A stretch of 64,000 bases of DNA from the IMG/VR virus record IMGVR_UViG_3300047089_000244, positions 1-64,000 of that record. One strand, written 5' to 3'. Under the pieces are notes generated by a model. It saw nothing but the letters and a program-made list of their open reading frames with translations, was not told the DNA's origin and made no database searches. This document shows positions 30,578 through 61,055 of the stretch, in pieces (positions within the stretch are counted from its first letter, which is position 1; the number at the start of each line of letters is the position of its first letter). A program made the translations under genes and the position numbers. Source of the stretch: a virus.

Positions 30578-30781
30578 ATGAGCTATCCGGGACTTATCTT
30601 CGTTTGGACGATTATGGTGCTGTTGGTTTGGGGATCGGGGTGGTGTGTCCTCATGACCGGCCGCGCGGGCAATGGAGCCAAAGACAAAGGAATCGAGGGG
30701 TTCTACCGTAGGCTCTTACGTTCGTGGGCAGCCTTGTGGGTTGCGGTATGGTTGGTCCTGAGCATTGCTAGCCTCGCTTAG
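30578..30781 (+). CDS. 67-residue two-helix membrane protein
   Basis: Starts MSYPGLIFVWTIMVLLVWG at ATG 30578. Two hydrophobic segments (about residues 5-28 and 50-66) are separated by a basic loop (GRAGNGAKDKGIEGFYRR). Size and topology would fit a small holin, antiholin or superinfection-exclusion protein, but there is no direct evidence. It is transcribed opposite to the tail genes from a leaderless-type promoter, and its stop overlaps the stop of the chaperone frameshift product. Confidence 0.65.
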   Translation: MSYPGLIFVWTIMVLLVWGSGWCVLMTGRAGNGAKDKGIEGFYRRLLRSWAALWVAVWLVLSIASLA

Positions 30782-59106: not shown

Positions 59107-59388
59107 ATGATCCTTGAGATCGAATACGAGCAGGCTCTTCAAGGGATCGGTCCGACCCTAGAAGCGGTCGCACATGAACGCGAAAAGCAACTGAAAAAGT
59201 GGGGTACCCAGGACCACGATCCCAAGATGTGGCTGGCTATACTCGGTGAGGAGTACGGCGAGGTCTGCAAGGAGGTTGCGGAGACCCACGTCAAAGACTT
59301 CGACCGTGACGCATACCGTAAAGAGTGTCTACATACGGCTGCCGTGGCTCTGGCTATGGTCCAGTGCATTGACGACGGGATCGCTTGA
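59107..59388 (+). CDS. MazG-like NTP pyrophosphohydrolase
   Basis: A 93-residue all-alpha protein with the signature HEREKQLKKWGTQDHDPKMW, then LGEEYGEVCKEV (the ExxE metal motif) and YRKECLHTAAVALAMVQC. This matches a group of phage MazG-like enzymes thought to hydrolyse NTPs or alarmone-related nucleotides. The gene has its own leaderless-type promoter and ends where the promoter of the non-coding RNA begins. Confidence 0.78.
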   Translation: MILEIEYEQALQGIGPTLEAVAHEREKQLKKWGTQDHDPKMWLAILGEEYGEVCKEVAETHVKDFDRDAYRKECLHTAAVALAMVQCIDDGIA

Positions 59389-59413
59389 CTTTGCTTCTAG
59401 TATGCTCTATACT
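59385..59413 (+). promoter_or_regulatory. Promoter TTGACT / TATACT of the non-coding RNA
   Basis: TTGACT at 59385-59390, 17-base spacer, TATACT at 59408-59413. This is the best sigma-70-type promoter in the window. The predicted start is about 59419-59421. Confidence 0.75.
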
Positions 59414-59418
59414 ATGCG

Positions 59419-59570
59419 TACGCACACCAAATATACCTCATAAACCCCGCCACGAACCGTAAGCGCTACATGCCAGGATTACCGTGGTACCGGGGGAGGA
59501 ACGGCTAAAGGTGCGTAGCTGAGTCGGGACCGCTCGACAAAGCCGATGAGCCGCCTTCGGGCGGCTTTTC
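59419..59570 (+). ncRNA. Candidate structured phage RNA
   Basis: No convincing coding sequence lies here; a nine-codon frame at 59414 starts before the predicted transcript. The RNA would start near 59420 and end at the terminator at 59549-59570, about 150 bases. Pairings I can see: TACGCAC 59419-59425 with GTGCGTA 59511-59517; CCTC 59436-59439 with GAGG 59496-59499; CCCCG 59445-59449 with CGGGG 59491-59495; CCACG 59450-59454 with CGTGG 59483-59487. Together they form a long bulged arm closed by the 5' end. An alternative CGGCT 59502-59506 / AGCCG 59541-59545 pairing exists. It lacks a T-loop and acceptor, so it is not a tRNA. Function is unknown. Confidence 0.65.
59549..59570 (+). terminator. 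Rho-independent terminator with UUCG loop
   Basis: Stem AGCCGCC / GGCGGCT (59549-59555 and 59560-59566) with a TTCG tetraloop, followed by TTTC. Confidence 0.88.
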
Positions 59571-59578
59571 TCGTTCTC

Positions 59579-59606
59579 TTGACTTCGTAGCATAAGCTGG
59601 TATACT
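59579..59606 (+). promoter_or_regulatory. Promoter TTGACT / TGGTATACT, leaderless type
   Basis: -35 TTGACT at 59579-59584, 16-base spacer, -10 TATACT at 59601-59606 preceded by TGG. It ends six bases before the ATG at 59613 and starts only nine bases after the terminator of the RNA. Confidence 0.75.
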
Positions 59607-59612
59607 ATGTCT

Positions 59613-61055
59613 ATGACCTCCTCTAAGACGTTTCCTCCCACACCTGAGCAGCAAGCCGCGCTCGACGCCTTCGTCACCGGCCAGAACATGGTGATCGAGG
59701 CTGGCGCAGGCACCGGCAAGACTACCACCCTGCGCCTCCTGGCCGAGTCCACCGATAACCAGGGCATCTACGTCGTCTACAACAAGGCTGCGCAGACAGA
59801 TGCGGCATCCTCCTTCCCCACTAACGTTCAGGTCCGCACCGCCCACTCACTGGCCTTCGGTGCGGTCAAGAATGGCAAGAAGGGGGGCCTCATGGGCCGC
59901 CTGAACGGGAACCGCCTCCCGAGTAAGGCGTGCGTCAACATCCTGGACATCCCCGCTGGGTTCCAAGCTGACGAAGATCATTTCATCCCCGACTGGATCA
60001 TCGCTCGCTCCGCCCTCGACGCCGTAGGACGCTTCTGCAACAGCGCTGACGATGAGGTCAACGAGTACCACGTCCCTAAAATCGACGGGCTAGAGGATCA
60101 GCGCTCCTACAAACAGTACGTGGTCACCTACGCGAAGAAGGCATGGGACGACCTCAACAGTCTCTCCGGCAAGCTCCAGTTCAAGCACGACCACTACCTC
60201 AAGATTTGGGCGCTGTCGCGTCCGACTCTTCGCTGCGACTTCGTGATGCTGGACGAGGCGCAGGACGCCAACCCCGTCATTGCCAAGGTGGTCGAGGACC
60301 AGGAGATGCAGCAAGTCATGGTCGGCGATCGCTGCCAAGCTATCTACGGGTGGCGCGGGGCAGTAGACGCGATGAGCGACTTCGATGCCGAAAATCGCAT
60401 GATCCTCTCGCAGAGCTTCCGCTTTGGTCCGGCTGTCGCCGAGCAGGCCAACAAGTTCCTTGACCTGCTAGATGCCCCGCTGCGCCTTAGCGGGTTCGAG
60501 AAGATTGCCTCGACGGTCGGAATCGTCCAAGAGCCCGATGCAATCCTCTGCCGCACAAATGCTTCGGTCATCGAGAACGCGATGAGCGCACAGGCCGGTG
60601 GTAAGCGTGTCGCAATCGTCGGCGGAACACGCGAGATCGAGGAGTTCACCAAGGCAGCACGCGACCTGATGGAAGGCAGTAGTGTCAGCCATCGGGATCT
60701 GGTAGCCTTCAAGTCCTGGAACGAGGTCGTCGCCTACGCCAAAAGCGAGGAGGGGCGCGATCTGCGCGTCATGGTCAGTTTGATCGAGAACTACAGCGTT
60801 GAGGCGATCCTGTCGGTCTGTCAGGCGAGCGTCAATGAGAGTTCCGCCGACATCATCGTCTCGACGGCCCACAAGGCCAAGGGACGCGAGTGGGACCACG
60901 TTCGCATCAGCAACGATTTCACGGCTCCCGAGGAAGGCGAGGTGCCCTCGCGTCCGGAGCTTATGCTAGCCTATGTAGCCGTGACAAGGGCGAAAATCAC
61001 ACTTGACCAAGGGGCACTCTCCTGGGTCAACGACTACATCAAGGTGGCAGCATGA
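59613..61055 (+). CDS. UvrD/PcrA-like superfamily 1 helicase
   Basis: A 480-residue helicase starting MTSSKTFPPTPEQQAALDAF at ATG 59613; the ATG at 59607 touches the -10 box. Motifs: TPEQQAAL (Q motif), AGAGTGKT (Walker A, about 30-37), LDEAQD (about 213-218), GDRCQAIYGWRGA (motif III), QSFRFG (about 267-272), TAHKAKGREWDHV (about 418-430), AYVAVTRA (about 453-460). It is shorter than UvrD (about 720), lacking much of the 1B/2B subdomains. Base composition is visibly more GC-rich, with C/G-ending codons, than in the flanking genes, suggesting recent acquisition. Role in replication or repair. Confidence 0.9.
   Translation: MTSSKTFPPTPEQQAALDAFVTGQNMVIEAGAGTGKTTTLRLLAESTDNQGIYVVYNKAAQTDAASSFPTNVQVRTAHSLAFGAVKNGKKGGLMGRLNGNRLPSKACVNILDIPAGFQADEDHFIPDWIIARSALDAVGRFCNSADDEVNEYHVPKIDGLEDQRSYKQYVVTYAKKAWDDLNSLSGKLQFKHDHYLKIWALSRPTLRCDFVMLDEAQDANPVIAKVVEDQEMQQVMVGDRCQAIYGWRGAVDAMSDFDAENRMILSQSFRFGPAVAEQANKFLDLLDAPLRLSGFEKIASTVGIVQEPDAILCRTNASVIENAMSAQAGGKRVAIVGGTREIEEFTKAARDLMEGSSVSHRDLVAFKSWNEVVAYAKSEEGRDLRVMVSLIENYSVEAILSVCQASVNESSADIIVSTAHKAKGREWDHVRISNDFTAPEEGEVPSRPELMLAYVAVTRAKITLDQGALSWVNDYIKVAA

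Follow-up and report, generated by a model that had tools for sequence, protein, structure and literature searches.

A candidate orphan small RNA unit ahead of the helicase gene in a large actinobacterial myovirus

Phage-encoded trans-acting small RNAs include PreS of lambda and VpdS of VP882 (reviewed in PMC12197685), and intergenic small RNAs occur in actinobacteria, for example in Mycobacterium tuberculosis (PMC3207917). The small RNAs of actinobacteria-infecting phages are little known, and we found no described small RNA of cluster-C relatives in the literature searched. Actinobacteria are generally held to lack Hfq, the RNA chaperone of the best-studied phage small RNAs. The locus considered here lies ahead of a helicase gene in a window of 64,000 bases (positions 1-64000 in a virus record of 169,966 bases) and resembles PreS and VpdS in being a short noncoding phage transcription unit, known in our case from sequence alone, but those two RNAs bind Hfq and are unrelated to it in sequence. 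With the small RNAs of M. tuberculosis it has in common that it is noncoding and lies between genes; unlike them it is phage-borne, and two patterns retrieved no homologue from GTDB contigs. We regard the unit as an orphan candidate for the phage small RNAs, a known kind; its defined extent of 190 bp and absence from one relative make it easy to delete and assay.

The major head protein of the record is ~55% identical to those of Mycobacterium phages Myrna and Phabba and Rhodococcus phage E3, a tail sheath gene was found, and 37 tRNA genes and a tmRNA gene occupy record positions 145163-157738 (an array at about 145-158 kb, outside the window). Cluster-C mycobacteriophages likewise carry a large tRNA set and a tmRNA (PMC4472892). 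The head protein identity, the tRNA/tmRNA array and the tail sheath gene together indicate that the source phage is a large actinobacterial myovirus related to the cluster-C mycobacteriophages. The unit and its neighbours are listed in Table 1. The gene upstream of the unit had been called MazG-like, a label that found no Pfam support and that the PHROG match does not supply.

Table 1. Positions in the window of the candidate small RNA unit, its predicted elements and the flanking genes.
Feature	Position	Strand	Basis or remark
Upstream gene, 93 aa, best PHROG 2831 (function unknown)	59107-59388	+	family searches
Promoter of the unit, TTGACT-17-TATACT, exact	59385-59413	+	same type as promoters of this phage's leaderless genes
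Predicted small RNA, about 150 nt	59420-59571	+	start placed by the -10-to-ATG spacing of 6-8 nt
Helix P1, 5' strand ACGCAC, pairs with 59511-59516	59420-59425	+	fold prediction; chance about 0.02
Predicted interior rod CCUC/GAGG, CCCCG/CGGGG, CCACG/CGUGG, 28-nt loop	59436-59499	+	no more stable than shuffles, z about -1
Helix P1, 3' strand GUGCGU	59511-59516	+	fold prediction
Short 3' hairpin GCU-GA-GUCGGG/CUCGAC-AA-AGC	59518-59543	+	z -2.1 and -2.85, moderately stable
Intrinsic terminator GAGCCGCC-UUCG-GGCGGCUU + UUUUCUCG, then TTCTCGTTCT	59548-59567	+	strongest of its stretch
Separate helicase promoter TTGACT-16-TATACT	59579-59606	+	begins 12 bases past the terminator
Downstream UvrD-like helicase gene	59613-61055	+	family searches

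The preliminary description had placed a near-consensus promoter (TTGACT, 17 bases, TATACT) and a UUCG-loop terminator at the two ends of the unit, and both were located. The promoter is exact and was correctly positioned, its -35 element overlapping the TGA codon at 59386-59388 that ends the upstream gene, and the terminator follows ~135-154 nt past it. The one-mismatch version of TTGACT-N17-TATACT occurs 2 times in the window vs 0.19 expected by chance. A looser generic promoter scan stayed at chance level (12 found vs 11.3 expected); the weight therefore falls on the exact promoter match and on its coupling to the terminator. On this reading of the sequence, the promoter-to-terminator stretch at 59385-59571 is very probably a real transcription unit.

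The 5' end of the predicted RNA was placed by comparison with other promoters of the same phage. In a scan of the whole record, strong promoters were followed by an ATG mostly 6-8 nt past the -10 box, and the strong promoters of this phage appear to drive leaderless mRNAs, with about 10-20 genes that appear leaderless. Sites of the leaderless type stand, for example, at 30578, 59613, 65694, 82223, 92091 and 119551, and similar sites are present in three related records (G006, G009 and G011). The helicase gene itself reads TATACT-ATGTCT-ATG, with a leaderless start at 59613. The unit reads TATACT-ATGCGT-ACG, so that ACG stands in place of the leaderless ATG, and the predicted RNA start falls downstream of the ATG at 59414. 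Applied to the unit, the spacing rule of this phage's leaderless genes puts the inferred RNA start at 59420, where ACGCAC opens and helix P1 has its first base.

No sense-strand ORF of at least 50 aa was found inside the unit, and its reading frames matched no Pfam or PHROG family and nothing in relatives; the antisense ORFs at 59438-59767 and 59505-59846 matched no family either. A single frame is open across 59419-59505, and the frame starting at the ACG closes after 7 codons. The earlier statement that the unit holds no plausible coding sequence thus stands, with room left for very short peptides.

The pairing that had been proposed between the 5' end and 59511-59517 is present (UACGCAC/GUGCGUA, 59419-59425 with 59511-59517), and an exact 6-nt match like P1 is expected with a probability of 0.02 when a 154-nt window is drawn at random from this genome. 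Compared with shuffles, the whole unit gave z = -3.26 (-2.8 in a repeat), where the genome's 154-nt windows reach -3.03 at the 1% level. Without the terminator the value was -1.65, and the 98-nt core alone gave -0.99 and -1.13, within a background of mean about -0.3 and sd 1.1. Since z comes near background once the terminator is removed, the extra fold stability stems mainly from the terminator and the 3' hairpin. The three further stems said to fold the interior are indeed predicted, but the stability of the core that they form is no better than that of shuffled sequence. A pseudoknot between CCGU (59457-59460) and ACGG (59501-59504), read by eye, is possible.

Searches for homologues were carried out at several levels. 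Against the 4227 Rfam families, with thresholds set at the gathering level and also more permissively, no covariance-model score lay at or above the gathering score, and the unit matches no Rfam family, riboswitches included. ARAGORN found no tRNA or tmRNA within the window, in agreement with the first reading, which did not recognise the RNA as either. Of the weak Rfam matches, isrK (RF01394), which has a terminator-like 3' hairpin in common with the unit, gave the lowest E-value, 1.8, with 12.8 bits vs a gathering score of 50, a match at the level of chance. A blastn search of 50,697 phage records returned only short, mostly terminator-like matches, and exact core and loop patterns run against IMG/VR and GTDB contigs (two patterns in GTDB) gave either none or three matches without likeness beyond the pattern itself. 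A covariance model whose alignment was this one sequence entered as two identical rows, and which is therefore weak for distant relatives, gave no match of weight over 42 related virus records, over the fetched loci (including the whole own genome, G006, G009 and G011) or over six named relatives and Saccharomonospora phage PIS 136. In the closest DNA relatives, G002 and G038, with about 74-78% identity, matching sequence ends at 52.3 and 52.9 kb, short of the site, and the helicase-bearing related records G009, G011, G013 and G026 have a different sequence ahead of the helicase gene. Among all collections searched, the unit is by these comparisons an orphan of which one sequence is known.

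The single relative that spans the site is G006, which has the same gene order without exactly the unit. In G006 the counterpart of the upstream gene has ...ATCGCTTGA as its end, directly followed by CCGTAGCCTAAGCTGGTATACTATG, which corresponds to the helicase promoter of the window. What separates the two phages here is a clean stretch of ~193 bases flanked by two copies of TCGCTTGA/TCTCTTGA, both belonging to -35 elements. Since G006 is without exactly the stretch between TCGCTTGA and TCTCTTGA, the unit behaves in this comparison as a discrete accessory cassette bounded by two -35 repeats, apparently exchanged promoter to promoter, and the exchange could have run in either direction, as a loss in G006 or as a gain in the phage of the window. 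Of the helicase gene, G006 itself keeps the promoter and some 16 codons (L099:13157-13278), with the break at the -35 element (TTGACA) of the next gene, and G009 carries a small leaderless gene of about 60 codons between the dCTP deaminase and helicase genes. These differences in G006 and G009 indicate that the slot ahead of the helicase gene is variable.

The explanation that we favour, with moderate confidence, is that the unit encodes a small phage RNA, about 150 nt long, with an accessory role and acting in trans. Its transcription would start at the unit's strong promoter of sigma-70/sigma-A type and end at the intrinsic terminator, both of which are seen as sequence, and would presumably yield no protein; comparison with one relative places the cassette in the variable slot that precedes the helicase gene. 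The RNA would most likely work either through a protein that it binds or through its 28-nt apical loop, which would pair with an RNA of the host or of the phage. The adjacent helicase gene is probably not controlled by the unit, because it has its own promoter behind the terminator. RNA pairing energies were calculated for phage targets, the 241 predicted phage gene starts, and the best value was reached by 23 of the 60 shuffles. Of the original proposal of an undescribed regulatory RNA, what holds is therefore the independent noncoding promoter-to-terminator unit outside any Rfam family; the regulatory part is plausible, and is weakened by the lack of a homologue, by a core fold that equals shuffles and by the lack of a significant phage target.

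The strongest rival, which we consider doubtful, takes the unit to be what is left of a small, leaderless gene for a protein, its start codon now ACG and its frame gone, that would be transcribed without any RNA function. That the ACG sits at the position of a leaderless ATG is what such a decayed gene would leave, and G006 keeps a similar remnant of its helicase gene, promoter and about 16 codons, while G009 has a small leaderless gene of about 60 codons between dCTP deaminase and helicase; the chance-level stability of the core fold agrees with it as well. Decay nevertheless leaves unexplained why P1 begins at the exact predicted RNA start and why a stable 3' hairpin is present, and it has to contend with frames that match no protein family and no relatives and with an ACG frame that closes after 7 codons. 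Translation of a very short peptide, such as MPGLPWYRGRNG (12 codons, ATG near 59470), or from a non-standard start in the surrounding open frame, is very improbable: the frame is open across 59419-59505, but the ATG near 59470 has no Shine-Dalgarno sequence and is not at the leaderless position, and no relatives of the peptide were found.

Control in cis, in which the RNA would act as a leader or attenuator that senses a signal and allows read-through into the helicase gene, or would insulate that gene from upstream transcription, is unlikely. The order of structured RNA, terminator and gene is typical of such an element, but in an attenuator the terminator stands between the gene and its only promoter, and here an equally strong helicase promoter, at 59579, lies behind the terminator and leads to a leaderless start. 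Relatives, moreover, carry the helicase gene without such a leader, and no riboswitch in Rfam was matched.

A second promoter-RNA-terminator unit lies outside the window at record positions 82021-82185 (L093:18021-18185; fold z = -4.44) and is followed, as in the studied unit, by the promoter of a leaderless gene. Its sequence and fold are unrelated to those of the studied unit and, unlike the latter, it is kept in G006 at 137798 (L101:3798-3912, about G006:137798-137912; z = -6.33), where the same upstream gene has a homologue, with a further ORF lying between this homologue and the unit. By eye, this intervening ORF (L101:3342-3812) resembles an HNH homing endonuclease; it is absent at that place in the phage of the window. 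The two copies have in common GAGCGCGAC...GGTCATC...ATAGAG and the same helix order, and their inner hairpin differs in sequence with the pairing kept (CUCU/AGAG vs CUCCCUA/UAGGGAG), which, coming from two sequences, is suggestive. That this unit is common to G006 shows that putative noncoding units of promoter-RNA-terminator layout are kept in this lineage. The 82-kb unit matched nothing in Rfam, in phage records or in further IMG/VR contigs, and its RNA likewise had no significant target among the predicted phage gene starts. Pairing of its GGUCAUC with leaderless starts of the form AUGACC was weakly enriched in one genome (p 0.04) and in none of three others, and was discarded. From its conservation, the 82-kb unit is a better candidate than the 59-kb unit for a new RNA family, and offers a handle for finding a true one. 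It is a speculative and rather improbable generalization that large actinobacterial myoviruses carry exchangeable promoter-to-promoter cassettes for structured regulatory RNAs absent from Rfam, of which the 59-kb and 82-kb units would be two, and which would act on leaderless mRNAs or on host RNA or protein independently of Hfq.

At the head of the tRNA array, at record position 156641 (minus strand) and at G006:36638 (minus strand), we observed a promoter and a leaderless ORF of about 20 codons (MVYLSPKQN... and MMYLSPKLN...), and in both phages a similar hairpin region precedes the terminator there.
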